A stretch of 64,000 nucleotides of DNA from Sphaerisporangium rufum (GTDB lineage: Bacteria; Actinomycetota; Actinomycetes; Streptosporangiales; Streptosporangiaceae), in the NCBI RefSeq assembly GCF_016863395.1, contig NZ_BOOU01000087.1, forward strand, positions 1-64,000, given 5' to 3'. Positions 13,999 through 30,600 of this stretch are shown in pieces; position 1 is the first letter of the stretch; every line of letters starts with the position of its first letter. The position numbers and the translations under genes are program-made. The notes beneath the pieces are model-generated. The model made no database searches. It worked only from the letters and a program-made list of their open reading frames with translations, and had not been told where the DNA came from.

Positions 13999-14709
13999 TC
14001 AGAAGACGGTGGTGAGATCCTGCCGGGCGATGTCGGCGGGAGCGAGACCGTGCCGCTCCATGACGCCGGCACGCATGATCGCGACGGTGTCCGCCACGGC
14101 CAGCGCCTGGTGGACGTTCTGCTCGACCAGCACGATGGTCCGGTCGTCGCGGCGCAGCGACGCGACGGTGGAGAGCACCAGCTCCGCGAGCTTGGGCGAC
14201 AGCCCCACCGAGGGTTCGTCGAGGAGCAGCACCCGGGGATTCGCCAGGAACGCGCGGGCGATCGCGACCTGCTGCTGCTGTCCTCCGGACAGGGAACCGG
14301 CGCGCGTGTTCCACAGCTGGCCCAGCACGGGGAACAGCTCCCGGGCCTCGTCGAGCCTGGCCCGTTCCTCCTGGGCGGTGCCCCGTTTCAGCCGGCGCGT
14401 GTTCCACATTCCAAGCCTGATGTTCTCGGCCACGGTGAGGTCGGCGAAGATCCCGCGGCCCTGCGGGACCAGCACCACCCCGGCGCGAGCCACGTCCGAC
14501 GGAGTCCGGCGCGCGATGTCGACGCCGTCCAGAAGGACTCCCCCGCCGGAAGGGCGAAGCAGACCGGCGATGGCGCGCAGCAGGGTGGACTTTCCGGCGC
14601 CGTTGTGGCCGAGAACCAGCTCGATACGGCCTGGCTCGAAGCCGGCGCTCAGCGCGTCGATGACCACGCGGTGCCCGAGCCGCACGGTCAGAGAGTCGAT
14701 GGTGAGCAT
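13999..14709 (-). CDS. livF: branched-chain-amino-acid-type ABC transporter ATPase, LivF-like
   Basis: Walker A (GHNGAGKST, residues 34-42), the LSGGQQQQ signature and Walker B (VLLLDEPS) are intact, with the VPQGRGIFADLTVAENIRLG segment typical of the LivF subgroup. It energises an inner-membrane importer together with LivG, M, H and K encoded directly upstream. It is the last gene of the five-gene minus-strand operon, 6 bp after livG. HAAT-family importers take up branched-chain amino acids, amides, urea or aromatic acids; the sequence does not fix which. Confidence 0.9.
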   Translation of the reverse strand: MLTIDSLTVRLGHRVVIDALSAGFEPGRIELVLGHNGAGKSTLLRAIAGLLRPSGGGVLLDGVDIARRTPSDVARAGVVLVPQGRGIFADLTVAENIRLGMWNTRRLKRGTAQEERARLDEARELFPVLGQLWNTRAGSLSGGQQQQVAIARAFLANPRVLLLDEPSVGLSPKLAELVLSTVASLRRDDRTIVLVEQNVHQALAVADTVAIMRAGVMERHGLAPADIARQDLTTVF

Positions 14710-14715
14710 GTCTCC

Positions 14716-15432
14716 TCAGTCCCGCTCGCCGAAGTAGAGCGATCGCACCAGTTCGTTGGAGAAGACCTCGTGGGCGGTGCCGGTGACGAGTTCCCGGCCC
14801 CGGTCGAGGAACACCACGACGTCGGCGAGGTCCTTGACGAGCCGGAGGTTGTGTTCGATCAGCAAAATGATCAGTCCACGGTCCTTGGCCTCGGCGACGA
14901 CCTCGCAGAACAGTTCGTATTCGCGTGGCGCGAGTCCGGCGGCCTGTTCGTCGAGGAGCCAGGCCCGGCCGTTCATGGCGAGCATCCGCGCGATCGAGAC
15001 CGCCTTCTGCTGCCCGTAGCCGAGGTCCGCGGCGAGGCTGCGTCGTGCCGCCGACAGGCCCAGGCGGTCCAGGATCTCCGTCGCGCGGGCCCGCGACTCG
15101 CGCGAGCGGGTCAGAACCGACCGTTCGGCCGCGAACATGGTCTGCTCCTGCACGCTCACGCCGCCGAACAGCCGGAGTTCCTGGAAGGATCGGGCAACGC
15201 CGAGCCTGGCCACCTGCCGGGCCGACCGGCCGATCAACTCGGTGCCGTCCAGCCGGGCACTTCCGCGCTCGGGGGGGACGAGCCCCGAGATCACGTTGAA
15301 CAGCGTCGTCTTGCCGGCTCCGTTGGGCCCGATCAGCGCGGTGACGGCCCCCGGTTCCGCGGTCAGTGACACGTCGTCCAGCGCGACCAGCCCGCCGAAC
15401 GCGGCCCGGACACCGTTGATCTCAAGGCTCAT
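14716..15432 (-). CDS. livG: branched-chain-amino-acid-type ABC transporter ATPase, LivG-like
   Basis: Walker A (GPNGAGKTT), the LivG-type signature LGYGQQKAVSIARML and the switch His in LLIEHNL are present. The Walker B segment reads WLLDEQAAGL, with Gln where most homologues have Pro after the catalytic Glu; the Glu itself is kept. The start ATG overlaps the stop of the livM-like gene by 4 bp, indicating translational coupling. Confidence 0.9.
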   Translation of the reverse strand: MSLEINGVRAAFGGLVALDDVSLTAEPGAVTALIGPNGAGKTTLFNVISGLVPPERGSARLDGTELIGRSARQVARLGVARSFQELRLFGGVSVQEQTMFAAERSVLTRSRESRARATEILDRLGLSAARRSLAADLGYGQQKAVSIARMLAMNGRAWLLDEQAAGLAPREYELFCEVVAEAKDRGLIILLIEHNLRLVKDLADVVVFLDRGRELVTGTAHEVFSNELVRSLYFGERD

Positions 15433-16367
15433 GGCTTCACCACCGGACCGTGGGCCCGCCGCCATGGCCGCGCGCCGCCGGCCCGGGCGGCCCAGCGTTC
15501 CCGCAGCACGACAGCGGAGGGAATGTAACCGCGGACGCCCACCGCGGCGATGATGAGCGCGCCATAGATGAGTTGCTCGAGCGGCCCGACGGTCGTGGAG
15601 GGCAGGTCCAGCAGGCTGATGAGCGGGACGGCGGCCACGACGATGGCGCTGCCGACGACCGGGCCGAGGGACCAGCCGATGCCTCCGACGATCACGATCG
15701 CGGTGAGCTGGATCGATAGGGAGTAGTCGAAGGCGGCGGAATTGATGAACCCGATGTAGAAGGCGTAAAGAACGCCTCCGAGCGATGAGACGGCGGCACC
15801 GAGCACGATGGCGACGTACTTGCCCAAGGTGGGACTGCGCCCCAGGGTCTGGGTCGCCACCGGGTCCTCCCGGATCGCGAGGAAGAGCCGCCCGACCGAC
15901 CCGCGGCGCAGCACGGCGGTGAGCGCCACCACCAGCGCCGCCACGACCCAGATCAGCCGCGACTGGGTCTCCGGGGTGGACAGTTCGGTTCCCAGCAGTC
16001 GCGGGTAGGGGATGCCCGAGATCCCGTCGGTGCCCTTGGTCACCGAGTACCAGCCGGTGAACACGGTCGAGACCATGATCTGGAACGCGAGGGAGGCCAC
16101 CATGAAGTACTCGTCGCTGACCCGCAGGGAGGTCAGGGCCAGCACCATGGCCACGGCGACGGAGCATCCGGCGGCGGCCACCGCGCAGATGATGAGCGAC
16201 CCACCGACCTGCGGCCCGAGCAGCGCGGTCACGTAGGCGCCGATGCCGACGAACACCGCCTGGGCGGCCGAGAACACCCCGGCGTAGCCCAGGGTGATGT
16301 TGAGTCCCGCCGCGGCGATGGCGAAGATCCCGGTGAGTGTTCCCACCGTGGCCAAGTACTCAAGCAC
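15429..16367 (-). CDS. livM: branched-chain-amino-acid-type ABC permease, LivM-like
   Basis: The protein has about eight to nine membrane segments and the conserved GLNITLGYAGVFSAAQAVFVGIGAYV opening and GGIGWSLGPVVGSAIVV segment of BPD_transp_2 permeases, the LivM branch being slightly longer than LivH. It would form one half of the channel in the membrane. The GTG at 16367 is the first start ahead of the initial helix. Confidence 0.9.
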   Translation of the reverse strand: MLEYLATVGTLTGIFAIAAAGLNITLGYAGVFSAAQAVFVGIGAYVTALLGPQVGGSLIICAVAAAGCSVAVAMVLALTSLRVSDEYFMVASLAFQIMVSTVFTGWYSVTKGTDGISGIPYPRLLGTELSTPETQSRLIWVVAALVVALTAVLRRGSVGRLFLAIREDPVATQTLGRSPTLGKYVAIVLGAAVSSLGGVLYAFYIGFINSAAFDYSLSIQLTAIVIVGGIGWSLGPVVGSAIVVAAVPLISLLDLPSTTVGPLEQLIYGALIIAAVGVRGYIPSAVVLRERWAARAGGARPWRRAHGPVVKP

Positions 16368-16451
16368 GCGGCACCTCCACGCGGGAGTCGGATCGGGTGG
16401 TCTGCGGGTGGCGGCGCCGGCTCCCGGGGCGGCGAGGGGCGGGACGCGTGC

Positions 16452-17336
16452 TCATGCGCTTCTCGCCTCCGCCCGCCGTCGCAGGCCCAGCGTCCCAAGA
16501 CCGCGCGGGCTCACCAGGATCAGCAGTAGGAAGACCGCGAAGACCACGCCGTCCTGCCAGGTCGCCGGAAGCGCCCACACCGCGACCCCTTGGACGACGC
16601 CGAAGAGCAGCGCCGCGGCCGCGGCGCCGCGGATGCTTCCGAGCCCTCCGAGCACCACGGCGGAGAACGCGAACAGCAGCGGGGTGTCGCCCACCGTGGG
16701 GTAGGCCCCGAGGACGTAGGCCGCGAAGATGCCGGCCGGCACGGCGAGCAACCCGGCGATCATGAACGCGACCCGCTCGGCACGGCGACGCGGCATGCCC
16801 CACACATCTGACATGTCGCGGGAGCAGGCCACCGCCCGCATCAGCGATCCGGTCATGGTCCGGGCGAGGAACACCCGGGTCGCCGCGTAGCAGGCGGCCG
16901 CGACGGCGAACGCCAGAAGATTGATCTTGAGCAGATACAGATCACCGAAGTTGACCGTCGAGTTCAGGGAGGTCCGCGGGTGGACCGGCTCGGCGGAGAA
17001 GATCAGCGTCAGGGCGGCACCTCCGACTATCCACAGGCCGAACGACGCCAGGAAGAGCGGGAACAGGGTCGGCTGGCGTTTGGCGATGGGCCGGTACAAC
17101 AGCTCGTAGCCGGCCATCGTGAAGGTCAGGGACACGCCGGTGGTGACCAGCACCGCGAGCAGGATGTGGGTGGATTCCAGTGCCGCGAAGGTCAGCGCGC
17201 ACAGGCTCAGCGTCGACCCATGAGCGATGTGGAAGATGCCGGTGACGTTGAGGATGATCGACATCCCGATCGCGATGAGGACGTAGAGGCCGCCCAGGAG
17301 GAACCCGCCGATGGCCAGCTGAACCAGTTCGTGCAT
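16452..17336 (-). CDS. livH: branched-chain-amino-acid-type ABC permease, LivH-like
   Basis: The 294-residue product begins LVQLAIGGFLLGGLYVLIAI and carries VVLGGLGSIRGAAAAALLFG, the LivH-type permease signatures, in about eight hydrophobic segments. It pairs with the LivM-like subunit. The ATG at 17336 follows a GGAGCTCC Shine-Dalgarno. The frame stays open upstream into the binding-protein gene, but that part is a shadow of the other frame. Confidence 0.9.
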   Translation of the reverse strand: MHELVQLAIGGFLLGGLYVLIAIGMSIILNVTGIFHIAHGSTLSLCALTFAALESTHILLAVLVTTGVSLTFTMAGYELLYRPIAKRQPTLFPLFLASFGLWIVGGAALTLIFSAEPVHPRTSLNSTVNFGDLYLLKINLLAFAVAAACYAATRVFLARTMTGSLMRAVACSRDMSDVWGMPRRRAERVAFMIAGLLAVPAGIFAAYVLGAYPTVGDTPLLFAFSAVVLGGLGSIRGAAAAALLFGVVQGVAVWALPATWQDGVVFAVFLLLILVSPRGLGTLGLRRRAEARSA

Positions 17337-17377
17337 GAAGGAGCTCCAGTCTCCGCGGTGCCGGTCTTCGGGTTCGG

Positions 17378-18538
17378 CTATCCGTCCGCCGGGATGGTGG
17401 TGAGCGTGGTGACCTTGCCGTCCTTGATCTGGTTGATGGAGATGTCGGTCTTGAGGGTGTGGTCGGCCAGCAGTTCGAGAGAACCGCCGACCGCGTCGAT
17501 CCTCCCTTGCGCGCCGAACTTCTCGTTGAGGGCGGCCCCGGTGACGTCCTTGCCCTCCCGGACGAGTTCCTTGGCCGCGTGCGCCCACATCAGCACGCCG
17601 TTGCAGTAGTTGCCGGGGATGGCGGGCGCGCCCTCGCCGGCCGAGATGTTCATCTCCTTGAGGAAGAACTTCGTGATCTGGTCGGGCGAGTCGAAGTTCA
17701 TGGCCTGGAGGGTGAACAGCGTTCCGTCCGCTTCCGGCAGGTCGAGCACGGAGGGAAGTTCCCCGATCGGTGACGCGCCGACCACCTGAGCGTCCACGCC
17801 CGCGCTGCGCAACTGCTGGAGGAGCGCCGTCTGCGACTCCCCGGAGTACACCATGAAGATCACGTCGGGCGCCTGCGCCTTCACCTTGTCGACCTGCGCG
17901 GTGAACGAGGTCGCGTTGACGGCGACCGGCAGCGTCGCCAGCGCGCGTCCCTCGCCCGTCCAGCCCTTTTTCATGATCTCGACGGCCTCCTGGCCCAGCA
18001 GGTCGTTCTGGTAGACCAGGCTCGCCTTCTTGAACCGCGGATGCTTCTCCTTGATGTAGGGGATGCTGGCGCCGAGTTCCTGGCTGATGAACGGGATGTC
18101 GTTCCAGACCCAGTCCAGACCGGCCAGCGCGGGGCTGAGCGCGCCGCCGTTCAGCACCGGCACCTTGGCCCGCTCGGCGAGCGGAGCCAGCGCGGAGGTG
18201 ATGGAGCTGAACGCGCTGAACACCATCGAAGCGCGGTCGACGCTGGTCAGCTTGGTGAACGCGGCCGTGCCCTTCTCGGTCTCGCCCGCGGTGTCGACGT
18301 ACTTCACCGTGATCTTCTTAGGCAGTCCGTCGTTCTCGTTCACCCACTTCACGCAGGCTTCGATGCCCTGCCGGTAGGTCGCCGCGGTCGAGGCGCCGGC
18401 CCCGCTCAGCGGCAGGGCGGCGCCCAGGACGTAGCCACCGCCGGAGGAACCGGAGCCAGACGAGCCTCCGCACGCTGTGAGGCTTCCCACGACGACCACG
18501 GCGAGCGGCAGGAGCACCCGGGCGGCTTGCTTGTTCAT
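17378..18538 (-). CDS. livK: ABC transporter substrate-binding lipoprotein, LivK-like
   Basis: A lipoprotein signal peptide ends in the lipobox LTAC (Cys23), followed by a Gly/Ser linker and a type I periplasmic binding fold of the Peripla_BP_6 class (VLGAALPLSGAGASTAATYR, VPVLNGGALSPAL, VVGASPIGELP). It would be tethered outside the membrane and hand substrate to the LivHM channel. The ATG at 18538 is preferred to an upstream ATG because it directly precedes the basic n-region. It is the first gene of the importer operon, and the operator-bearing promoter region lies upstream. Confidence 0.9.
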   Translation of the reverse strand: MNKQAARVLLPLAVVVVGSLTACGGSSGSGSSGGGYVLGAALPLSGAGASTAATYRQGIEACVKWVNENDGLPKKITVKYVDTAGETEKGTAAFTKLTSVDRASMVFSAFSSITSALAPLAERAKVPVLNGGALSPALAGLDWVWNDIPFISQELGASIPYIKEKHPRFKKASLVYQNDLLGQEAVEIMKKGWTGEGRALATLPVAVNATSFTAQVDKVKAQAPDVIFMVYSGESQTALLQQLRSAGVDAQVVGASPIGELPSVLDLPEADGTLFTLQAMNFDSPDQITKFFLKEMNISAGEGAPAIPGNYCNGVLMWAHAAKELVREGKDVTGAALNEKFGAQGRIDAVGGSLELLADHTLKTDISINQIKDGKVTTLTTIPADG

Positions 18539-18696
18539 GTTCCGGTGAACCCTTCTCATCGCGCGCTGCCCGGAGTGGCACGACCGCCTTCGCGTCTCGC
18601 GCGGGCCCCGATGGCGCGCCCTTTCCCTTGCCTGGGGTCGTCGCCCGTGTCAGGACACGGCCGCGAGATCGACACGCGGCCGGTACGGGCTATTTA

Positions 18697-18712
18697 AAGC
18701 GAACGATTGCTT
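18697..18712. promoter_or_regulatory. TetR-type operator, site A (importer side)
   Basis: AAGCGAACGATTGCTT is an imperfect palindrome of the form AAGCRAWCGWTYGCTT, followed by TG. It lies directly downstream of the proposed importer promoter, where binding would block transcription. Confidence 0.7.
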
Positions 18713-18818
18713 TGTATGCTCATAACATGACGTAACTCACGTTCCATGTCAATGGGCCTCGGCCGTAACGCGCTCGCCGTCCCCGCGACCAGGCCACCGT
18801 CCGGGGCGGCCGGAAACC

Positions 18819-18834
18819 AAGCGAACGATTGCTT
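18819..18834. promoter_or_regulatory. TetR-type operator, site B (hydrolase side)
   Basis: This is identical to site A over 18 bp (AAGCGAACGATTGCTTTG), although the flanks differ. It overlaps the -35 hexamer proposed for the cyclase-amidohydrolase operon. Confidence 0.7.
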
Positions 18835-18933
18835 TGAGAGCATCGATGGGTTACGTTGCCGGTTCATGACCGGTGAGCCCGGGCGGGCGCCGACCCTGGT
18901 GCCGGCCGGCCGGACCAGTCGTCGGGAGGCGAG

Positions 18934-19944
18934 ATGCCGGAGGACAAGCAGGTTCCGACCTATGCCGAACTGCGCGCGCGCACGGACGCGCCCGCGGGTT
19001 CGGCGTGGGGGATATTCGGGGCCGACGATGAGGTGGGCACGCTGAACCACCTCACACCGCGGCAGGTCCGCGCGGCGGCCACCCTGGTCCGGACCGGCGA
19101 GGTCATCAACCTGAACCTGCCGCTGGAGACGTTCGATCCGCCGGTGAGCCCTTACCGCAAGAGCCTGCGGCACCACATGTACTCGAACTATCCCTACCAC
19201 CGCGACGAGTACCTCGACAGCTTCTACCCTCAGGCCAGCACCCAGATCGACGGCTTCCGCCACATCGGTCATCCCGAATTCGGCTTCTACAACGGCACAT
19301 CCCCCGACCGCTTCCAGCCGCATGATCCGGTGCTCGGCATCAACCGCTTCACCGAGCGAGGCATCGCCGGCCGCGGGGTCCTGATAGATGTCGACCGCTA
19401 CCGCCGGGCACAGGGCAGGCCCATCGACCACGCCGCCGGCGAGGCCATCGGGCTCGGCGACATCACCGGTGCCGCCGCCCGGCAACAGGTCGACCTCCTC
19501 CCGGGCGACATCCTCCTCATCCGGACCGGATGGATGCACCGCCACCTCAACGAGCTGTCCCCCGAACAGCGCGACGAAGAGAAGAAGGGCATGCGCCTGT
19601 CCGGTCTGCGGGCCGCCGAGGACACCGTCGCATGGTTGTGGGACCACCGGTTCGCGATGCTCGCGACCGACAATTTCAGTGTCGAGGCGTTCCCGCCGCC
19701 GGTGGACTCGCCGTTCCTGACCGACAAGGAACGCCGAGGAGAGGTGTCACACTTCTCCTACCGGGGCGCCATGCACAACGTGCTGATCGCGCTCCTGGGC
19801 CTCCCGCTGGGCGAACTGTGGAATCTGGACGACCTGGCGGCTCGTTGTGCCGCCGACGGGAACTGGGACTGCCTGATCGTGTCCACCCCGCTGAACCTGA
19901 CCGGAGGGACCGGGTCCCCCGCCAACGCCGTCGCCATCCGATGA
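18934..19944 (+). CDS. cyclase family protein (kynurenine formamidase-like metal hydrolase)
   Basis: The 336-residue product shows the cyclase/KynB fold signatures: WGIFGADDEVGTLNHLTP near the start, a QASTQIDGFRHIGH metal-site region, a GRGVLIDV strand, LPGDILLIRTGW, and MLATDNFSVEA. The canonical HxGTHxDxxxH motif appears as Q-x-S-T-Q-x-D-x-x-x-H, the form seen in the large actinobacterial cyclase subgroup. Likely a hydrolase acting on an amide, ester or lactone. The ATG at 18934 has a GGGAGG Shine-Dalgarno; it is cotranscribed with the downstream amidohydrolase. Confidence 0.85.
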   Translation: MPEDKQVPTYAELRARTDAPAGSAWGIFGADDEVGTLNHLTPRQVRAAATLVRTGEVINLNLPLETFDPPVSPYRKSLRHHMYSNYPYHRDEYLDSFYPQASTQIDGFRHIGHPEFGFYNGTSPDRFQPHDPVLGINRFTERGIAGRGVLIDVDRYRRAQGRPIDHAAGEAIGLGDITGAAARQQVDLLPGDILLIRTGWMHRHLNELSPEQRDEEKKGMRLSGLRAAEDTVAWLWDHRFAMLATDNFSVEAFPPPVDSPFLTDKERRGEVSHFSYRGAMHNVLIALLGLPLGELWNLDDLAARCAADGNWDCLIVSTPLNLTGGTGSPANAVAIR

Positions 19945-20037
19945 CGCGCCGCGGCGGCCCGGCCGCCCCATGCCGGAGCGGCGCGCCCCGGCCCCCCGCC
20001 CGAACCTGGAAGACCTGCCCGGCGAAGGACGACTTTC

Positions 20038-21252
20038 ATGAACATCCTCGATGACGCCCACGCCATGCAGGACGATCTCGCCGAGCTGAGGCGACGGCTG
20101 CACGCGGAACCCGAGACCGGGCTCCACCTGCCGCGAACCCAGGAGAAGGTCTTGTCCTGGCTGGACTCCGCCGGCCTGGAGATCTCGACCGGCGATGCCA
20201 CGACCTCGGTCGTCGGTGTGCTGCGCGGAACCGCGCGCGACGGCCGGGACCCGCGTGCGGTACTGCTGCGCGCGGACATGGACGCGCTGCCCATCCGGGA
20301 GCTGACCGGCCTGGCGTTCGCCGCCACCAACGGTGCGATGCACGCGTGCGGCCACGATCTGCACACGGCCTCCCTGGCGGGCGCGGCCCATTTGCTCGGC
20401 CGGCATCGGGATCGCCTCGCGGGTGATGTCGTGTTCATGTTCCAGCCCGGCGAGGAGGGCCACGACGGGGCCGGTGTCATGGTGGGCGAAGGCGTGCTGG
20501 ACGCGGCCGGCTACCGTGCGGAGGCCGCGTTCGCGTTCCACGTCTTCTCCGCTGGGCTGCCCGGCGGCCTGTTCAGCAGCCGCCCCGGTGCCATCATGTC
20601 GGCGGCGCACCGGCTCCGCGTCGGCGTCAAGGGTGCCGGCGGGCATGGATCCATGCCCCACCGGGCCAAGGACCCGGTGACGGCCCTGGCCGCGATGATC
20701 ACCGGGCTGCAGACCATGGTGACCCGCCGGTTCGACGTCTTCGATCCGGTGGTGGTGAGCGTGGGCCGGATCGCCGCCGGGACGGCGCACAACGTCATCC
20801 CCGAAGTCGCCGAGTTCGACGCCACCGTGCGCACCTTCTCCGACCGCACCGCCGACGTCATCCGGTCCCGCGTGGAGGAGACGCTGGCGGGCGTCGCGTC
20901 GGCCCACGGCGTGGAGGTGGAGGTCCGGCTCGAACAGGAGGCCCTGCTCACGGCCAACTCCGCGTCCGAGGTCCGGTTCGCCGCCGAGGTCGCGCAGGCC
21001 GTGCTGGGAGACGGCGGGTACCGGCCGATGGCGCATCCGCTGGCGGCGTCGGAGGACTTCTCGCGGGTATTGGCGCATGTGCCGGGCGCCTTCATCGCCC
21101 TGGGGGCCACCCTGCCGGGCCTCGATCCCGGTACGGCGCCGAACAACCACAGCCCTTACGCCGACTTCGATTCCCGGGTGCTCTCCAGCGCGGCGGCCAT
21201 GTACGCGGAACTCGCCATCCGCCGGCTGGCCGCTCCGGCTCCCCGGCCCTGA
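20038..21252 (+). CDS. M20 family amidohydrolase (M20D, amide-conjugate hydrolase type)
   Basis: The metal-binding motifs of M20D enzymes are all present: RADMDALPI, MHACGHDLHT, QPGEEGHDGA and a C-terminal NNHSPYADFD. A dimerisation (lid) domain sits in the middle (GAGGHGSMPHRAKDP). Relatives remove acyl groups from amino acids, including N-acetyl, hippurate and indole-acetyl conjugates; the exact substrate is not readable. It lies 93 bp after the cyclase gene and probably shares its transcript. A hairpin follows its stop. Confidence 0.9.
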   Translation: MNILDDAHAMQDDLAELRRRLHAEPETGLHLPRTQEKVLSWLDSAGLEISTGDATTSVVGVLRGTARDGRDPRAVLLRADMDALPIRELTGLAFAATNGAMHACGHDLHTASLAGAAHLLGRHRDRLAGDVVFMFQPGEEGHDGAGVMVGEGVLDAAGYRAEAAFAFHVFSAGLPGGLFSSRPGAIMSAAHRLRVGVKGAGGHGSMPHRAKDPVTALAAMITGLQTMVTRRFDVFDPVVVSVGRIAAGTAHNVIPEVAEFDATVRTFSDRTADVIRSRVEETLAGVASAHGVEVEVRLEQEALLTANSASEVRFAAEVAQAVLGDGGYRPMAHPLAASEDFSRVLAHVPGAFIALGATLPGLDPGTAPNNHSPYADFDSRVLSSAAAMYAELAIRRLAAPAPRP

Positions 21253-21274
21253 TCCGGCCGGCCCGGGTCCGGGT

Positions 21275-21302
21275 CGCCCGGCGGCCGCGGGACCGCCGGG
21301 CG
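21275..21302. terminator. bidirectional hairpin between the amidohydrolase and CoA-ligase genes
   Basis: CGCCCGGCGG and CCGCCGGGCG form a perfect 10-bp stem around an 8-nt loop between two converging genes. No U-tract follows on either strand, as is common in high-GC actinobacteria. Confidence 0.5.
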
Positions 21303-21393
21303 GGCGGGCCGGGGCGGTGCGGCCCGCCACGATCGCCGGTGCGCGCCGCCGGCGATCTGGTGGTGCGCGGACCTCCTCGCCGGCCGGCGGCCG

Positions 21394-22917
21394 TCACGGA
21401 GTGGAACCGGTGCGCTCGGCGGCGAGCGCCGACCGCCGGAGCTTGCCGGCCTCGTCGCGGGGGATCCGATCGGCGATCTCGTAGCTCCTCGGCAGCTTGT
21501 ACGCCGCGAGTTGGTCCTTCATGAACTCGGCCAGCGCCTCCACCGTCGGCCGGGATCGGCCGGCGAGCTGCACGATGGCATGGACGGTGTGCCCCCATTC
21601 GGGGTCGGGCAGCCCGATGACGGCGGCGTCGACCACCTGCGGATGTTCCAGCAGCGCTCCTTCCACCTCGGCCGGGAAGACGTTCGCACCACCGGAGATG
21701 ATGAGGTCCACTCGGCGGTCGGCGATGTAGAGATGGCCCTCCTCGTCGACGTGGCCGAAGTCACCGACGGTGATGAACCCGTCTTCGGTCATGGGTGCCG
21801 GCGCGCTGCCGCGGTACTCGTAGGTCGGACCGGCATGGTGCGGTCGCATGTAGATCATGCCCACCTCGCCGGTGGGTGCCTCACGCTGCGAATCGTCCAG
21901 GATGCGCAGATCGCAACCGAGCGGCCTGCCCACACTGCCCGGGTGGGCGAGCCATTCCTCGCCTCGGATGCCGGCGGCACCGATGGCCTCGGTGGCGCCG
22001 TACAGCTCGGCGACCCGGTCCGGGCCCAGCAGGTCCATCCACTGTCTCTTGAGCCAGGGCGGGCAGGACGCGGCACCGTGGAACAAGGTCTCGACGCTGG
22101 ACCAATCGCGGTCCGCCACGCCGGCCAGGCGCATGAGCCGCAGCATCATCGTGGGGACCGCGAACATGAACTCGACCCGGTACTTCTCGACACAGTCGAC
22201 GGCGCCCTGCGGGGTGAACCTCTCCAGGATCACCAGGTGGTGGCCGAAGAACAGGCCCCAGTACGCCCAGCCGAACGGCGCGTTGTGGTACAACGGTCCG
22301 CAGACCAGCTGGACCTGATGGGGCCGCAGCCGCAGGAGTTCGGCCAGGGGCTGCAGGCAGTGCCCTTCAGCGGTGCCGGCGACGGCACCGGGGTTGCCCC
22401 ACGGGAGCGGATCGACGATGAGCTTGGGCGTGCCGGTCGAACCGCCCGAGCACACGGCCTTGCCGGGCCGGGCGTCGGCGAGCCGCCAATCCTCCCGGCG
22501 CATCCGCGGGATCTGGTCGGGAGTGAGGGACAGAAACCCGGGCACGTGGTCGAGTGAGACGATCACGGTGGGTTTCGCCAGGGCGAGGATCTGGTCGCAT
22601 TCCCGGGCCGGCATGTCGTAGCGAAGTGGGATCACGCAGGCGCCGAGCTTCCAGGTGGCCACCGTGACCAGCACGTGCTCGATCGAGTTCCGCAGCTTGA
22701 CCAGGACCACGCTGCGGGCACCGACGCCGCGGGCCGCCAGGCCCGCGGCGAAGGCGTCGCTCCGCGCGTCCAGTTCCGCCCAGGTCAGCCGAGTGGTCGA
22801 GGCGTCCGGATGGTGGACCAAGGTGACGGCGGCATCGTCCGGCCGATCTCGCGCCACCCGGCGGATCTGCTCGCCGTAGGAGATGTAGTGGTCGAACGCG
22901 AGTCGCTGCTGGGTCAT
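21394..22917 (-). CDS. class I adenylate-forming acyl-CoA ligase
   Basis: The 507-residue product has an AMP-binding domain: a P-loop variant VCSGGSTGTPKLIVDP, ELYGATEAIG as motif A5, and VGDFGHVDEEGHLYIADRRVDLIISGG covering A7/A8, then a C-terminal subdomain ending in RDEAGKLRRSAL with the catalytic Lys. It activates a carboxylic acid to an acyl-CoA via acyl-AMP in the cytoplasm. The ATG at 22917 follows a GAGG Shine-Dalgarno. It is divergent from tetR, with a copy of the operator (site C) between them, so it should belong to the same regulon. Substrate unknown. Confidence 0.9.
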   Translation of the reverse strand: MTQQRLAFDHYISYGEQIRRVARDRPDDAAVTLVHHPDASTTRLTWAELDARSDAFAAGLAARGVGARSVVLVKLRNSIEHVLVTVATWKLGACVIPLRYDMPARECDQILALAKPTVIVSLDHVPGFLSLTPDQIPRMRREDWRLADARPGKAVCSGGSTGTPKLIVDPLPWGNPGAVAGTAEGHCLQPLAELLRLRPHQVQLVCGPLYHNAPFGWAYWGLFFGHHLVILERFTPQGAVDCVEKYRVEFMFAVPTMMLRLMRLAGVADRDWSSVETLFHGAASCPPWLKRQWMDLLGPDRVAELYGATEAIGAAGIRGEEWLAHPGSVGRPLGCDLRILDDSQREAPTGEVGMIYMRPHHAGPTYEYRGSAPAPMTEDGFITVGDFGHVDEEGHLYIADRRVDLIISGGANVFPAEVEGALLEHPQVVDAAVIGLPDPEWGHTVHAIVQLAGRSRPTVEALAEFMKDQLAAYKLPRSYEIADRIPRDEAGKLRRSALAAERTGSTP

Positions 22918-22936
22918 TGCACACATCCCTCGGGGA

Positions 22937-22952
22937 TAGCGATCGCTTGCTT
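22937..22952. promoter_or_regulatory. TetR-type operator, site C (ligase/tetR)
   Basis: TAGCGATCGCTTGCTT matches 14 of 16 positions of the palindrome AAGCRAWCGWTYGCTT and is followed by TG, like the other copies. It lies 24 bp before the tetR ATG, covering the -35/spacer region of a TACGAT -10 box, and 20 bp from the ligase start on the other strand. Confidence 0.6.
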
Positions 22953-22975
22953 TGAACACTGATACGATGATTTCC

Positions 22976-23560
22976 ATGCCGCGATCCACCCGTGTCCAGG
23001 AGATCGTCGCCGCGGCGACGAAGCTGTTCAACGAGCGCGGATTCCAGGGGACGTCCGTCCGGGCCATCGCCGAGGCGGCGGGCATGCAGTCGGGCGGGCT
23101 CTACTCGCATTTCTCCTCTAAGGAGGCGCTGCTGCACCATATCGTGGTCGAAACCCATAAGGTGCAGCGCACCGCCCTGGAGAAGGCCGCGATGGGCGAC
23201 CTCGAACCGGAGGCGAAGTTCCGTGCCGCCTTCCTGGCGCATGTGGCGTCGAACTTCGAAGTGGGACCCGCCTCGGCTCCGCGTCTGTTCCTGACCGAGT
23301 GGCAGCACCTGACCGGCCCCGAACTGGACGATGTGCTCAGGTATCGCCGGGAGTACGAGGAACTCTGGGACAGGATCATCGGCGAGGCGATCGAGGCGGG
23401 GGTGTTCCGCGCGGGCACCGACCTGCACATCGCTCGCCTCGTGGTGCTGTCGGTCGCCAACTGGTCGGTCATGTGGTTCAAGCCCGAGGGTCGCCAGTCG
23501 ATCGACGAGGTGTTCGGCAGGGTCGCCGACGAGATGCTCAACGGGCTGCTGGCCCGCTGA
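22976..23560 (+). CDS. TetR/AcrR family transcriptional regulator, probable regulon repressor
   Basis: The 194-residue product has the classical N-terminal HTH (about residues 8-55: RVQEIVAAATKLFNERGF, TSVRAIAEAAGMQSGGLYSH, FSSKEALL) and a helical ligand-binding C-terminus containing EWQHLTGPELDDVLRYRREYE. This C-terminal type is common in regulators of acyl-CoA and steroid or aromatic catabolism that sense acyl-CoA thioesters. A TACGAT box 7 bp before the ATG at 22976 suggests a leaderless start; ATG 22967 is an alternative. It likely represses itself, the ligase, both flanking operons and the importer through sites A-D. Confidence 0.88.
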   Translation: MPRSTRVQEIVAAATKLFNERGFQGTSVRAIAEAAGMQSGGLYSHFSSKEALLHHIVVETHKVQRTALEKAAMGDLEPEAKFRAAFLAHVASNFEVGPASAPRLFLTEWQHLTGPELDDVLRYRREYEELWDRIIGEAIEAGVFRAGTDLHIARLVVLSVANWSVMWFKPEGRQSIDEVFGRVADEMLNGLLAR

Positions 23561-23593
23561 GCCGCCTGCGGCATCTCGCGTCCCATCGCCGGC

Positions 23594-24763
23594 TCAGAAG
23601 TGCTCGAAGAGCCACGGCGTCGGACCGGCGAACAACGCGTCGAGCCGTTCCACCACCTCCGGGGAGACCGCCTGTAGCCGCCCCAGCGCCTGGGCCTCCC
23701 GGCCGGTCGACCGGCCGGTGAAGATCGACGCGAAGCTCGACGCGTCCATGGTGACGTGCGGCGCCACGGTGACCTCCTCGGTGTGAGCGCGCCCTCCCCG
23801 CACCGCCAGCCGCAGGGTCCGGGCGATGCCGGCATCGTTGATCCCGAGCACCACCGACAGGTCCAGGGCGGTACTGTAGCCGCGCGCCGAGAGCGCGGCC
23901 GGCAGGTCGAGGATCTTGGTCATCCACGGGCGTGCCCAGTCGACGAGGACGGGGTCGTCGAAGAAGCCCGCCATCCCGTCCGAGGGGCTGCCGATCCACG
24001 AGATCTCCTCCCCCGGAGAACCGGCCCGCGCCAGGGCGTGCAACAGCGCGTGGGCCGCGGAGACGGTGGACCAGACGATCTCCCGGGCGCGCACCCGGTG
24101 GAGGTACGCGGGCTCGCCGGGCCGCGGCGCCTCCACCTGGTCCCACAGCGCGTAGCCGGTCGGCTCGCCGTCGCGCTCCGCGACGATGGCGAACGTCTCG
24201 CCCGACCGGACCCGCGGCAGGATGTGGGAGTGCCACCACTGCCGGTCCCGGTGGATCGGTCCGTTGCCGCGCCGGGCGAACCCGTCGTAGATCTCCGCGA
24301 GCCGGTCGACGTCGCCGGGCTGGAACCAGCGGATGTCGTCTCTCTCGGCGCCGAGGCGCAGGGACCGCGAGGCGGCGTGGAATCGGAATCGGTGGCCGGC
24401 GACCTCGTAACCCGCCCGCCGGTACGGCGCCATGGCCGAGGGCGTCAACGTGGAGATCGCCGCACCACCGTCCGCGTGCCGGCGCAGGACGGGGCCGAGC
24501 AGTTCGGCCATGACCCCGCCGCCGCGACGCGGGAGGTCGACCATGACCGAGGAGATGGCGACGCAGGGAACGGAACGGCCGCCCACCCACTGGGCGACGC
24601 GTCGGGCGAGCAGGGCGGCGACCCGCGTGCCGTCGTGCTCGAGCACATGACCGTGCCGTGACCACAGCTCGACATCGAGCGGCGCGGTGAAGCTCTGCCG
24701 CCGGAGCCCCCGCACGAACATCTCGTCGTCGGCGCGGAACGGCCGCGCCCGCGCGCTAGCCAT
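23594..24763 (-). CDS. Eis-like GNAT N-acetyltransferase
   Basis: Three regions match the Eis family: an N-terminal GNAT lobe with ISSVMVDLPRRGGGVMAEL (acetyl-CoA motif), a second GNAT lobe with LDLSVVLGINDAG, and a C-terminal SCP2-like domain ending in the free-carboxylate signature TPWLFEHF that contributes the catalytic carboxylate in Eis. Eis enzymes acetylate amines on small molecules or proteins. It is the last gene of the thiolase operon, overlapping the SDR stop by 8 bp; a GTG at 24781 is an alternative start. Its presence suggests an amine-bearing intermediate, which is inference. Confidence 0.85.
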   Translation of the reverse strand: MASARARPFRADDEMFVRGLRRQSFTAPLDVELWSRHGHVLEHDGTRVAALLARRVAQWVGGRSVPCVAISSVMVDLPRRGGGVMAELLGPVLRRHADGGAAISTLTPSAMAPYRRAGYEVAGHRFRFHAASRSLRLGAERDDIRWFQPGDVDRLAEIYDGFARRGNGPIHRDRQWWHSHILPRVRSGETFAIVAERDGEPTGYALWDQVEAPRPGEPAYLHRVRAREIVWSTVSAAHALLHALARAGSPGEEISWIGSPSDGMAGFFDDPVLVDWARPWMTKILDLPAALSARGYSTALDLSVVLGINDAGIARTLRLAVRGGRAHTEEVTVAPHVTMDASSFASIFTGRSTGREAQALGRLQAVSPEVVERLDALFAGPTPWLFEHF

Positions 24764-25685
24764 CGGCCGGTGCCCGGTCACCGAGCGTCTCCAGGAATTC
24801 CAGAGCGTTCGGCCAGCGATGGAACCCCGAGCCGAGCTGCCGCTCCAGCTCCTCCAACGTCCAGCGACCGCTGGTCCTGAACAGGCCGATGACGGCCGGC
24901 GGGGCGAAGAGACGCACCTCGTTGCCCGCCACGTGGAACACCTGCCCGGTGGCCTGGCAGGTCGGGGATGCGAGCCAGCCGACCAGGGGCGAGACGTTGG
25001 CGGGGTCCCAGAAGTCGAACCCGGGGCCGGCCGCCGGGAGGGGCGGCCCGCCGGGGGACGCCATGGTCTCCAGGACCGTCTCGGTGTGCGCCGAGGGGGC
25101 GATCACGTTGGACCGCACACCGATCTTCTCGCCTTCCAGGGCCAGAGTCGCGGACAGGGCGACGATTCCGAGCTTGGCGGAGGCGTAGTTCCCTTGCCCG
25201 AAGTTCGTCATGAGACCGGACAAGGAACTGGTGTGCACGATCACCCCTCCGAACGGCCCGCCGTTCCCCTTGGCCTGCTCCCGCCAATGGGCCATGGCGT
25301 GGACGGCAGGGGCGGCATGGCCTTTGAGGTCGACGCGCAGCACGTCGTCCCACTCTCTCTCGCTCATGCGGGCGAGCGTCCGGTCCCGCACGATCCCGGC
25401 GTTGTTCACCAGGATGTCGAGCCGGCCGAACGTGTCGCGGCATGTCTCCACCATCCGGCGCGCGTCACTCCAGCTGGAGACGTCGCCGTGGTCGCTCACC
25501 GCACGGCCCCCGGAGGCGACGATCTCCTCGACGACGCCGTCGGCGAGCCGGCCACCGTCGCGGCGCCGGCCGATGTCGTTGACGAGCACGTCGGCCCCCA
25601 GTTCCGCCAGGTGCAGAGCGTGGCTGCGGCCCAGGCCCCGGCCGGCCCCCGTGACGATCGCCGCCAGGCCGGACAGCGGGGTCAT
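24756..25685 (-). CDS. SDR family oxidoreductase
   Basis: The Rossmann motif VTGAGRGLGRS is at residues 11-21, followed by NNAG and the catalytic triad region HTSSLSGLMTNFGQGNYASAKL, containing Ser, Tyr and Lys with YxxxK spacing. The long C-terminus resembles the 3-hydroxyacyl-CoA/17-beta-HSD4-like SDR branch often found in steroid and acyl-CoA degradation clusters. It would oxidise a hydroxyl to a ketone, producing the substrate for C-C cleavage. The start ATG at 25685 overlaps the stop of the DUF35 gene by 4 bp. Confidence 0.9.
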   Translation of the reverse strand: MTPLSGLAAIVTGAGRGLGRSHALHLAELGADVLVNDIGRRRDGGRLADGVVEEIVASGGRAVSDHGDVSSWSDARRMVETCRDTFGRLDILVNNAGIVRDRTLARMSEREWDDVLRVDLKGHAAPAVHAMAHWREQAKGNGGPFGGVIVHTSSLSGLMTNFGQGNYASAKLGIVALSATLALEGEKIGVRSNVIAPSAHTETVLETMASPGGPPLPAAGPGFDFWDPANVSPLVGWLASPTCQATGQVFHVAGNEVRLFAPPAVIGLFRTSGRWTLEELERQLGSGFHRWPNALEFLETLGDRAPADG

Positions 25686-26152
25686 GACGCGGCCTCGCCG
25701 GCCGCGGTGCCGGTCCGGCCGGCGGATCCGGCGGCGGGTCGACGGCCTACCGGACCGTCCGCGCCCTCGCCGGAGACATGGTCGAAGTACAGGATGGGCC
25801 GCTCGGTGCCGTCCGGCCGCCACCGGGCGACCACCCGGTCGCCGATGACCGTCCCCGCCGGAAGCCGGCCGAGCAGCCGCGGGCCCACCTCGAGTTCGAC
25901 GAGCCCGGAGGTGTACGGGGGAGGCAGCTCTTCGTGCACCGGCAGCAGGACCTGGACGCATGAGTACACCGTGCCGACACCGGAGCACTCCGCCCAGGCC
26001 GGCTTCGGCGAGTCGCAGGCCATGCAGAACGGCCGGGGGTAGAGCTGGTGGTGCCCGCAGGCGGCGCAGCACTGCACGATCAGCCTGCCGTCACGAGCCG
26101 CGGCCCAGAACTCGGTGGTGGTGGGATCATGGAGATCGGCGGGCTCAGTCAT
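25682..26152 (-). CDS. Zn-ribbon/OB-fold protein (DUF35 family)
   Basis: The 156-residue product has four Zn-ribbon cysteines in the arrangement C29-x2-C32 and C43-x2-C46, followed by an OB-fold (GVGTVYSCVQV, PYTSGLVELEVGPRLLGRLP). DUF35 proteins form complexes with thiolase-like enzymes, for example ChsH2 with the Ltp2 aldolase in steroid side-chain degradation. Its start overlaps the thiolase stop by 8 bp, a strong sign of subunit coupling. The last ~40 residues are low-complexity. Confidence 0.9.
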   Translation of the reverse strand: MTEPADLHDPTTTEFWAAARDGRLIVQCCAACGHHQLYPRPFCMACDSPKPAWAECSGVGTVYSCVQVLLPVHEELPPPYTSGLVELEVGPRLLGRLPAGTVIGDRVVARWRPDGTERPILYFDHVSGEGADGPVGRRPAAGSAGRTGTAAGEAAS

Positions 26153-27329
26153 CGGTGAGCACCACCGTCGAGCTGTAGGAGAGCAGACCGCCGATGCCGT
26201 TGACCAGCGCGGTCCTCGGCTTCGGGGCGACCTGCCGCTCGCCGGCATCGCCGCGCAGCTGGCGGACGGCCTCAATGAGCAGGAAGATCCCGAAGGCGCC
26301 GGGGTGGGTGTAGGACAAGCCACCTCCTGAGGTCATGGCCGGCAGCCTGCCGCCCGGTTTCATGTGACCTTGGGCGAACATCTCGCCGCCCATTCCCTTC
26401 TGGCAGAAACCCAGGTCCTCCAGCTGGAGGATCGGGGTGATGGTGAAGGCGTCGTAGGGCTGGAAGATGTCGACGTCCTCCGGGCCGATGCCGGCCATCT
26501 CGTAGGCCGCGCGGCCCGAGGCGACGGCGGCCGTCGTGGTCAGGTCACGGCGCTGGTGCGGATGCCAGTGGGTGTGGCTCTCGCCCCAGCCCCGGATGGC
26601 GACCGGCGGGCGCCCGGCCCGGCGGGCCCGGTCGGCGGTGGTGACGATGACGGCACCGCCACCGTCGGTGATCGGGCAGCAGTCGAGCTTCTTCAGCGGC
26701 CCGCAGACGCGGTCGGAGGCCATGACGTCCTGGACGGTCAGCGGGGCGCGACGCCAGGCCTTCGGATTCATCCGCGCCCACTCGCGGCCGGTGACGGTGA
26801 CCGAGGCGAGCTGCTCCTCGGAGGTCCCGTACTCGTACATGTGCCGGGCCGTGATGAGAGCGAAATGCCCGATCGGCAGCGGCAGCCCGGCCGGCACGTC
26901 GAACTGCGCGGCGATCGAGCCGGGGAGCGCGGGGGCCGTGGCGTGCTTGCGGGAACGTGATCGCAGGCTGCGCTGTCGGGAGGCGTAGACGAGCAGGGCG
27001 ACCTCGCACTGGCCGGCCGCGATGGCGGCCATGGCATGGCCGACGAATCCCTCCCATGACCCTCCACCAAGGTCGGAGGAGTCGGCATGACGGGGTTCGA
27101 CGCCGAGGTACTCACCCACCTGCACCGACCCCTCCTCCCCCATGTAGTTGACGAACAGCCCGTCGACGTCGGCACGGGTCAGGCCGGCCTCCTCCAGCGC
27201 CTCCATCGCGGCGAGCGCGGCCATGGAGGGCTCGGACTGGTCGGCGACGTGACCGAGAGGGCTCTCGGCCACCCCGGTGATGTAGAACTCCGGCACTTTG
27301 CTCGGTTCCCCCTCCGGGTGGCCGGTCAT
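26145..27329 (-). CDS. thiolase-like protein of the SCP-x/Ltp2 type, lacking the usual active-site Cys
   Basis: The thiolase fold is recognisable: FYITGVAESPLGHVADQSEPS, NYMGEEGSVQVGEYLG, then LKKLDCCPITDGGGAVIV, DIFQPYDAFTITPILQLEDLGF and the HPGAFG segment in GGLSYTHPGAFGIFLL. Where a thiolase has the nucleophilic Cys, this protein reads GGGSWEGFVGHAMAAIAAG, with no Cys. Cys-less partners of DUF35 proteins (Ltp2) are retro-aldolases. The ATG at 27329 lies downstream of the site D promoter. It opens the operon thiolase-DUF35-SDR-Eis. Confidence 0.85.
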   Translation of the reverse strand: MTGHPEGEPSKVPEFYITGVAESPLGHVADQSEPSMAALAAMEALEEAGLTRADVDGLFVNYMGEEGSVQVGEYLGVEPRHADSSDLGGGSWEGFVGHAMAAIAAGQCEVALLVYASRQRSLRSRSRKHATAPALPGSIAAQFDVPAGLPLPIGHFALITARHMYEYGTSEEQLASVTVTGREWARMNPKAWRRAPLTVQDVMASDRVCGPLKKLDCCPITDGGGAVIVTTADRARRAGRPPVAIRGWGESHTHWHPHQRRDLTTTAAVASGRAAYEMAGIGPEDVDIFQPYDAFTITPILQLEDLGFCQKGMGGEMFAQGHMKPGGRLPAMTSGGGLSYTHPGAFGIFLLIEAVRQLRGDAGERQVAPKPRTALVNGIGGLLSYSSTVVLTDD

Positions 27330-27368
27330 CGGCCCCACCGCGTGTCTGTGGCGTCCTCCGCCCAAGGA

Positions 27369-27384
27369 AAGTGAACGATCGCTT
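27369..27384. promoter_or_regulatory. TetR-type operator, site D (thiolase operon)
   Basis: AAGTGAACGATCGCTT matches 15 of 16 positions of the palindrome and is followed by TG. It starts 3 bp after the -10 box of the thiolase promoter and therefore covers the probable transcription start, the classic repression position. Confidence 0.75.
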
Positions 27385-27387
27385 TGT

Positions 27388-27416
27388 AATATTGCACGCG
27401 CGATGCGCGATGTCAA
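27388..27416 (-). promoter_or_regulatory. sigma-70-type promoter of the thiolase operon
   Basis: On the minus strand TTGACA and AATATT are separated by 17 bp, an almost ideal promoter. The operator site D immediately follows the -10. Confidence 0.75.
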
Positions 27417-27669: not shown

Positions 27670-30600
27670 TCAGCCCGGGCTCCACCGGCCGAGCAGTTCG
27701 GCCATCCTGGACCGGTACCGGTCCACGTTGCCGAGCTTGACGTCCTCGTAGCCGCGCACCATGTCCGGCAGTTCGGCCACCTCGACGGCCAGGGCGAGAT
27801 TCTCCACGGTCAGGTCGTGGGTGAGCCGGGCCACCACCTCGACGTACTCGTCGATCAGCGCACGCTCGACCCGCCGGACCCGAGCGCGGCCGAACGGGTC
27901 CAGCGGGGTGCCGCGCAGCCTTCTGGCCGCGTACAGGGCACGGAATCCGGGACGGAACCACCGGCCGAGAGCGATCTTGCGCTGGACCCCCATGGCGCGC
28001 AGGATCGGCGGGTGCAGCCGGTAGTGGACCCGGGCGCCCGCGCCGAAGATCGCGGCGAGCTCGGCGTCGAGCTCGGGACGCAGGGAGAGACGCGCCACCT
28101 CGTACTCGTCCTTGTAGGCCATGAGCTTGAACAGCTGCCGGGCGACCGCGTCGGTGAGCGCCTCGCCATCCGGCGTGACCTGCCGTTCGCTGTCCCGGAC
28201 GGCCAGGACGCGCCGGCGGTAGGCCTGGGCGTACCCGGCGTCCTGGTAGGCGGCCAGCTCCCCGGCGAAGTGGTCCACGAGCTCGTCGAGACCTTCCGGC
28301 GCCTTCGCCGCGACCTTCGAACGGCGGCCGGCCAGTGCCAGCACGGTTTCCGGGTCGGCGACGTACTGCCGCCCCCGGCGGAACGCCTGGATGTTGGTCT
28401 CGACGGCGACGCCGTTCAGCTCGATCGCCCGCTCGATGGCCGCCGCCGGCACCGGGAGCGCGCCGGTCTGGAAGCCGGCGCCGAGCAGCAGGACGTTGGC
28501 GTACTGATCATCGCCGAACAGGTCCAGGGCCAGGGCGCGCGCGTCGAACCGGTGCGTCGTGCCGCTCCGGGCCGCCACCTGGTCGGCCAGCGCGGCCGCG
28601 TCCGGGAAGGCCACGGACGGATCGCTGACCATCGCGCCGGTCGGGACCTGGGACGTCGAGAGCACCGAGACGGTCCGATCGGCCGCGGCGACCTCCAGGT
28701 TGGCCGGCTGGGCGGCGACCAGCAGATCGCAGCCCAGGTAGAGGTCGCACTCACCCGCCGCGATCTTGTTCGTGGTGCCGCGGGTCCGCCCCAGCAGGAC
28801 GTCCGAGACGACCGCGCCGCCCTTCTGCGCCAGACCGGTCTGGTCGAGCGATCGGGTACTGAAGCCGGCCAGGAGCCCGGCGGTGGCGAGCACCTGCGAC
28901 ACCGTGACGACGCCCGTGCCGCCGATCCCGGTCAGCCGGATCCGGGCCTCGGCCCCGCCGGGCCGGGCCGGCGGCGCGGGCAGGTCCCCTTCGGCGAGCC
29001 GCTCGGGCGGCGTCGTGGCCCGCTGGGTGCCGCCGGTGACCGTCATGAAGGCCGGGCAGTCCCCGTCCAGGCAGCTCAGGTCGGTGTTGCAGGAGGCCTG
29101 GTGGATGCGGGTCTTGCGGCCATAGCGGGTGGGAACGGGCTGGACGGAGAGGCAGTTGGACTTCCGGCCGCAGTCTCCGCAGCCTTCGCAGACGCGCTCG
29201 TTGATGAACACCCGTGTCTCGGCCGGGGCGTCCTTCCGGCGCTTACGCCGGCGGCGCTTCTCGGTGGCGCACTCCTGGTCGTGGATCAGGACCGTGACGC
29301 CGGGGGTGGCCGCCAGGACGCGCTGGGCCTCCTGGAGCCGGGACCGGTCCCACACCTCGACGTGGCGGGGCAACCTGACCCGCCGGTAGCGGGCGCGGTC
29401 CTCGGTGGTGATCAGGACCCGGCTCACGCCCTCGGCCAGCAGCAGGTCGACGATCCGCGGCACGTCCATGCCGCCGACCGCCCGCTGCCCGCCGGTCATG
29501 GCGACCGCGCCGTTGAAAAGGAGCTTGTAGGTGATGTTCACGCCGGCCGCCACCGCGGCCCGGATCGCCAGCGAGCCGGAGTGGGCGAAGGTGCCGTCCC
29601 CGAGATTCTGCACGTAGTGGTCGCGGTCCACGAACGGCGCCATGCCGACCCATTGCAGCCCTTCCCCGCCCATCTGCGCGAGGCCGGTGACCGTACCGAC
29701 CTGCGCTTCGTCCATGAGGAGGACCATCGCGTGGCAGCCGATGCCGCCGCCGACCAGGGCTCCCTCGACCGGCTTGGTGGAGGAGTTGTGCGGGCATCCG
29801 GAGCAGAAGTACGGCGCCCGGTTGACCAGCGGGAGCATCATCCGCGCGGGCGATCGCGGCCGGCCGGGTGCGGGGCCGCAGTCGACGGCGGCGGCCGAGA
29901 GCACCCGGTGCATCGGGCGGGTGATCGCGTCGGCGTCGAGGTCGCCGTACGCGGGCAGCAGCTCGCCGCCGTCGAGATCGTGCTTGCCGACGATCCTGGG
30001 CGCCCGATCGGCGCCGTAGAGCAGCTCCCGGAACGCGGTCTCCATGAAGGCCCGCTTCTCCTCGACCACGAGGATCACCTCGAGCCCGTCGGCGAACTCG
30101 GCGACGGTCCCGGCGTCCAGCGGGTAGGGCATGGCGACCTTGAGCAGCCGCACCGGGCTGGCGTCCAGCGCGTGCTCGCCCAGCCCGAACCGGTCCAGGA
30201 CCGAACGGACGTCGTGCCAGGTGCGGCCGGAGGCCACCACGCCGACCCGGTCCGAAGGCCCGCGCCCGACGATCCGGTTGAGCCGGTTGAGCCGCGCGTA
30301 CTCGCGGGCCAGCCGCAGCCGGGTGCCGACCAGCTCCCGCTCCAGGGGGCCGAGTGCGGGTTGCAGCAACCGCGCCGTGGGCCGATGGCCGCCGGCCCCG
30401 GGTGGAAGCTCGATCGCCGCCGGCTCGGCGGTGAGGTCGACCGTGGACGAGCCGTCCGCCACGGCGGTGACGATCTTGAGCGCGGTCCACAGCCCGGTGG
30501 CGCGCGCGAGCGCGATGGCGTGCCGCCCGTACCGCAGGATCTCGGAGCTGTCGCCGGGGTGCAGGAACGGGACCATCAGGTCCTGCAGCGCGAAGTCGGA

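Follow-up and report, generated by a model that had tools for sequence, protein, structure and literature searches.

A TetR regulator of PaaR lineage and its proposed palindromic operators in a catabolic gene cluster of Sphaerisporangium rufum

A 64,000-base stretch of Sphaerisporangium rufum DNA (NZ_BOOU01000087.1, positions 1 to 64,000; the window) contains a catabolic gene cluster in which four copies of a palindrome lie at the start regions of the proposed operons. Judged from sequence comparisons, these palindromes are very probably operators of the TetR-type regulator encoded at 22976-23560, which would repress five transcripts and be released by a coenzyme A (CoA) thioester of the pathway. 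The action of a single TetR on all four palindromes, proposed earlier from the letters of the window (the original prediction), is the best-supported reading and is largely borne out, as the motif tracks tetR across an orthologous cluster in Actinomadura madurae, a locus in another family of the order (L029) and 17 of 30 testable tetR homologs.

Palindromes at the start regions of the cluster

An 18-mer is present in two exact copies (18697 and 18819) and in two variants, one at 22937 (three mismatches) and one at 27369 (two mismatches), and a mismatch scan bore out the original prediction in these positions and in the absence of further copies, as no other match at ≤3 mismatches was present in the 64,000 bases. 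One hundred dinucleotide shuffles of the window gave zero matches. The symmetrical core of the 18-mer is the 16-bp palindrome AAGYRANCGNTYGCTT, in which the central CG is invariant between the sites and which is directly followed by TG in four of four copies.

The sites fall in three intergenic regions from which, by gene positions, the operons start, again in line with the original prediction. Palindrome A (18697..18712) is the proposed operator of the livKHMGF importer operon on the minus strand, palindrome B (18819..18834) that of the cyclase-M20 operon on the plus strand, palindrome C (22937..22952) one common to the divergent fadD and tetR genes, and palindrome D (27369..27384) that of the thiolase operon; none of the palindromes is assigned to a strand. 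Their matrix scores are 32.0, 28.6, 27.6 and 30.9, respectively, from a matrix that the same four sites helped to build. Counted to assumed gene starts, site C lies 23 bp from tetR (22976) and 19 bp from fadD (22917), while site D precedes the thiolase gene by about 40 bp, B the cyclase gene by about 100 bp and A livK by about 140 bp.

Conservation with Actinomadura madurae

Scanning a genome collection with a search sensitive to close relatives only yielded a single relative of the TetR, that of A. madurae, with 69% identity over 194 residues. The A. madurae cluster has the same gene order, with identities of 76% for the ligase, 85% for the thiolase, 71% for the short-chain dehydrogenase (SDR), 68% for the GNAT protein, 64% for the DUF35 protein and 74% for the cyclase. 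Palindromes are kept at three matching start regions, which answers the comparison of orthologous clusters that the original prediction had asked for: L022:843 before the carrier and cyclase genes (counterpart of B), L022:9963 between ligase and tetR (counterpart of C), and L022:14313 before the thiolase gene (counterpart of D).

A matrix made from the three A. madurae sites alone ranked the four window sites first to fourth in the 64 kb with scores of 26.8 to 22.9, the next score being 11.4 and the best of 100 shuffles 17.0. Together with the window shuffles, this cross-prediction led us to reject a chance origin of the palindromes. The reverse matrix, made from the window sites, scored the A. 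madurae sites at 28.4, 25.8 and 11.8 against a best of 18.4 in 200 shuffles, and the A. madurae counterpart of site C is thus supported by its position and not by its score.

The 20.6-kb A. madurae stretch gave no M20 or Liv match. There, a major facilitator superfamily (MFS) carrier (L022:888-2258) precedes the cyclase gene, while the window has a LIV-type ATP-binding cassette (ABC) importer (13999-18559); the two importers are unrelated, yet a palindrome lies upstream of each.

Association of the motif with the regulator

Nine loci (L041-L049) encode thiolases 58-66% identical to that of the window without this TetR, and none has a site above a score of 10.3, on which grounds the motif was rejected as belonging to the enzymes. 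These loci are thiolase-DUF35 modules in other genomes of the family; a related SDR accompanies most of them, and a ligase of 47-49% identity several. At L029, which encodes a 36%-identical TetR, the highest-scoring site (19.5) is found before a LIV importer operon whose first gene is of the Peripla_BP_6 family, and a weaker site at chance level (8.6) lies at a luciferase-like monooxygenase frame (the two sites are L029:3162 and L029:8737). The palindrome is also contained in the inverted-repeat list of L029 (I5), the repeat lists otherwise holding mostly coding repeats. The motif hence follows tetR and not the enzymes, since A. madurae has it in three start regions, L029 has it at the importer operon and 17 of 30 testable homologous tetR genes have it upstream, and since nine of nine thiolase loci without the TetR lack it.

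Occurrence outside the cluster

At ≤1 mismatch to the palindrome, the 7.80-Mb S. rufum genome contains the four sites and two other places, C1:117023 and C55:35365, both intergenic by their reading frames. At ≤2 mismatches the totals of 31/32 are close to those of a reversed control pattern (31/26). By mismatch pattern, the motif is therefore nearly confined to the cluster and is not scattered among unrelated genes of its own genome, the outcome which the original prediction had named as telling against it. At C1:117023 (L004:1501), a one-mismatch palindrome, possibly a chance one, stands 23 bp before a 142-aa frame that has no Pfam match and that was taken, from inspection and position only, as ATP synthase protein I. 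At C55:35365 (L005:1501), a palindrome with one mismatch, overlapped by a second register, precedes a gene for an SBP_bac_3 solute-binding protein.

A wider regulon, in which off-cluster matches are true sites, is the most serious alternative, and we regard it as unlikely. Its support in S. rufum is that both places are intergenic and that the one on C55 precedes the solute-binding protein gene, but they score 17.7 (C1) and 17.3 (C55), below the best score of 18.6 in 2.56 Mb of shuffled window sequence (40 shuffled windows), which is chance level. The A. madurae genome weighs against a regulon restricted to the cluster, as ≤1 mismatch gives seven distinct places there, two in the cluster and five outside, in excess over the reversed control. 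Among these, C9:266010 (L050:9011) scores 24.2, C6:57739 (17.1) lies directly before a SnoaL-like gene, and C18:192871 (15.8) is located between frames or at the margin of one. On the other side, C9:266010 is inside a 156-aa frame (best Pfam match HTH_67, just below the cut-off), C19:106930 (14.6) falls within the 5' portion of an aldehyde dehydrogenase frame and C24:70660 (8.8) is within a long frame, and these three were taken as probable chance matches, while C6:57739 and C18:192871 are kept as candidate sites. The A. madurae places add some weight to the wider regulon and take a little from the cluster-bound one.

Promoter context and mode of action

A promoter-like box on the minus strand (27388..27416; TTGACA-17-AATATT, 10 of 12, the -10 preceded by TG) directly abuts site D, in agreement with the near-ideal -10 box that the original prediction had placed immediately before this site. 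Site D thus stands straight behind a near-consensus promoter box, a typical repressor position. A promoter scan around A and B and around C found no recognisable sigma-70 promoter-like site and so gives no support to the earlier statement that site B overlaps a -35.

The regulator might instead activate some transcripts, for instance from A, which precedes livK by about 140 bp, or from B, and repress others. In favour of such mixed action, A and B lie far upstream of the start codons, with no clear core promoter around them, but the position of D is that of a repressor, and Thermus PaaR and KstR2 are described as repressors in published accounts, which makes activation at A or B a rather improbable alternative to repression throughout.

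The regulator and its relatives

The product of 22976-23560 has a TetR_N domain (66.9 bits) and a TetR_C_24 domain (82.3 bits); an NCBIfam search of it returned no family above the cut-off. TetR proteins are numerous in the S. rufum genome (47 matches at E≤0.001), the best paralog being 29% identical and having no such motif upstream. The regulator was absent at E≤1e-25 from the other 10 of the 11 genomes searched in the genus, and 393 of 394 genomes of the class gave no match at 1e-30, with few candidates scored per genome and the window genome itself as the sole match. The cluster looks rare and patchy in its distribution. Among the papers listed in a literature search that reached few subscription journals, there was no printed report of this regulator.

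Several known regulators can be compared. The operator of KstR2 from mycobacteria and rhodococci is AnCAAGnnCTTGnT, from which each window site departs on at least one side when compared by eye; its central CG is free, whereas that of the seven sites in this analysis is invariant, and its regulon serves cholesterol degradation. KstR2 matched the TetR at 5.4e-14, more weakly than PfmR (TTHB023) of Thermus thermophilus at 8.1e-22, and no KstR2-named model was in the NCBIfam list. PfmR differs in having an ACCGAC-type half-site. BkaR of mycobacteria is likewise an autoregulated TetR with palindromes in a shared intergenic region, but its operator, given in PMC3920632 as GTTA(N)T(N4)A(N)TAAC, is unlike the window palindromes. 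The ownership of the palindromes by a different, wider TetR elsewhere in the genome, with the local TetR merely a target, would draw on the many TetR genes and the similar half-sites of KstR2, but is very improbable given that the motif tracks the local ortholog and homologs, is nearly confined to the cluster, and is missing upstream of the best paralog, itself only 29% identical.

The closest parallel to the proposed regulation by the local TetR is PaaR (TTHA0973), which governs phenylacetate catabolism in T. thermophilus and for which PMC6651687 gives the operator AACnAACGTTnGTT. Both are TetR proteins heading their catabolic operons, and AACnAACGTTnGTT has the same spacing and core as the window sites. 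They differ in that the half-sites are AGC in the window and AAC for PaaR, and in that no PaaA/PaaC domain was found among the 10 cluster proteins scanned. S. rufum has its own paaA/paaC-type genes on contig C50, with no site at ≤2 mismatches listed on that contig. Phenylacetyl-CoA is said, by a title of Sakamoto from 2011, to be the effector of PaaR.

A three-sequence profile search at 1e-33 matched 46 of 396 genomes of the phylum and gave 48 matches outside S. rufum, of which the 29 with returned loci were examined together with L022 and L029. As CCAAACnAnCGnTnGTTTGG-like palindromes appeared before many tetR genes, the relaxed pattern AARCRANCGNTYGYTT (≤2 mismatches, 300 bp upstream) was set post hoc and applied to 30 testable regions, A. 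madurae included and L080 left out for missing upstream DNA. The palindrome was found upstream of tetR in 17 of these 30 homologs, many of them from one family, and 16 of the 17 carry AAC in place of the AGC half-sites. By comparison, none of 14 paralogous S. rufum TetR genes had it, and 100 Markov resamplings of the homolog regions gave a mean of 0.23 (maximum 2). Of the 29 homologs from the phylum, 20 have paaA next to the TetR gene, among them every one of the 16 whose site is of AAC type, and the PaaA_PaaC domain was confirmed at L054, L059 and L064.

In the phylogenetic tree, the window and A. madurae regulators join the paaA-linked TetR of L055 (98/90) inside a group of 24 rows (98/93), with Thermus PfmR outside. 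The tree has 13 control rows and was made without L073, L017, Thermus PaaR and KstR2, and 17 of its 42 inner branches are weak. From this placement and the common operator plan, the window protein seems to be a TetR of PaaR lineage in the service of another CoA-thioester pathway.

The difference in half-site is accompanied by differences in the recognition helix. A44 is common to the 16 homologs whose site is of AAC type (≤2 mismatches), and their residue 39 is R in 12, K in 3 and A in 1, with kinship among them not removed from the count, while S39 and S44 are found in the window, A. madurae and L029, the three systems whose sites are of AGC type. L069, with S44 (and G39) at an AAC-like site of three mismatches, counts against residue 44 as the cause. 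A tentative reading, to which we give somewhat less than even weight, is that an unrelated CoA-thioester pathway captured a repressor of PaaR lineage, whose operator specificity changed in step, the half-site from AAC to AGC and residues 39 and 44 from R or K and A to S and S. If true, this would be a natural specificity switch that is testable residue by residue.

Gene content and proposed regulation

The importer genes lie on the minus strand and encode a LivK-type substrate-binding protein (17378..18559, Peripla_BP_6), a LivH-type permease (16452..17336, start inferred) and a LivM-type permease (15429..16367), both with BPD_transp_2, and the LivG-type (14716..15432, start inferred) and LivF-type (13999..14709) ATPases, both with ABC_tran. 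The plus strand carries the genes for a putative cyclase/hydrolase (18934..19944, PF04199), an M20 amidohydrolase (20038..21252, TIGR01891) and the TetR repressor of PaaR lineage (22976..23560), and the minus strand fadD, encoding an AMP-dependent acyl-CoA ligase (21394..22917) for which a bile acid-CoA ligase is the best sequence match among solved relatives.

The remaining minus-strand genes encode an SCP2-type thiolase (26145..27329), with a distant match to benzoylsuccinyl-CoA thiolase, and, by domain scan, a ChsH2-like zinc ribbon/OB-fold protein (DUF35; 25682..26152, start inferred), an SDR (24756..25685, start inferred) and an Eis-like GNAT acetyltransferase with an SCP2_2 domain (23594..24781). 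Since these four frames overlap by a few bases, they probably form one operon. Its final gene, that of the Eis-like GNAT protein, is conserved in A. madurae, at the 68% identity given above. Upstream of the thiolase operon lies a gene for a fused indolepyruvate ferredoxin oxidoreductase family protein (27670-31083), before which the window scan found no palindrome.

The cluster probably degrades an organic acid. A ring-bearing carboxylic acid as substrate would suit the bile acid-CoA ligase match, the SCP2-type thiolase with its ChsH2-like partner, the benzoylsuccinyl-CoA thiolase match and the PaaR-lineage regulator alike. In the absence of substrate, a TetR dimer would sit on each 16-bp site, over or beside the promoter, and repress livKHMGF from A, cyclase-M20 from B, the divergent fadD and tetR itself from C, and thiolase-DUF35-SDR-GNAT from D. 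The acid would be imported and converted to its CoA thioester, and this thioester, or an early product, may bind the C-terminal domain of the TetR and release it. The regulator would descend from PaaR-type phenylacetate regulators and now serve a different CoA-thioester pathway, with an AGC half-site where PaaR has AAC.

Such a circuit follows the usual TetR scheme in a new setting, and is modestly novel in combining a PaaR-lineage regulator, a shifted half-site and a different pathway. A catabolic cluster that was uncharacterised thereby becomes a proposed regulon, for which the operators are named and a class of inducer is expected. Between the two genera, the importer was exchanged (ABC in one, MFS in the other) but kept a proposed operator in front of it, and the regulator has apparently switched pathways with little change in its operator, both of which are useful cases of the rewiring of bacterial catabolic circuits.
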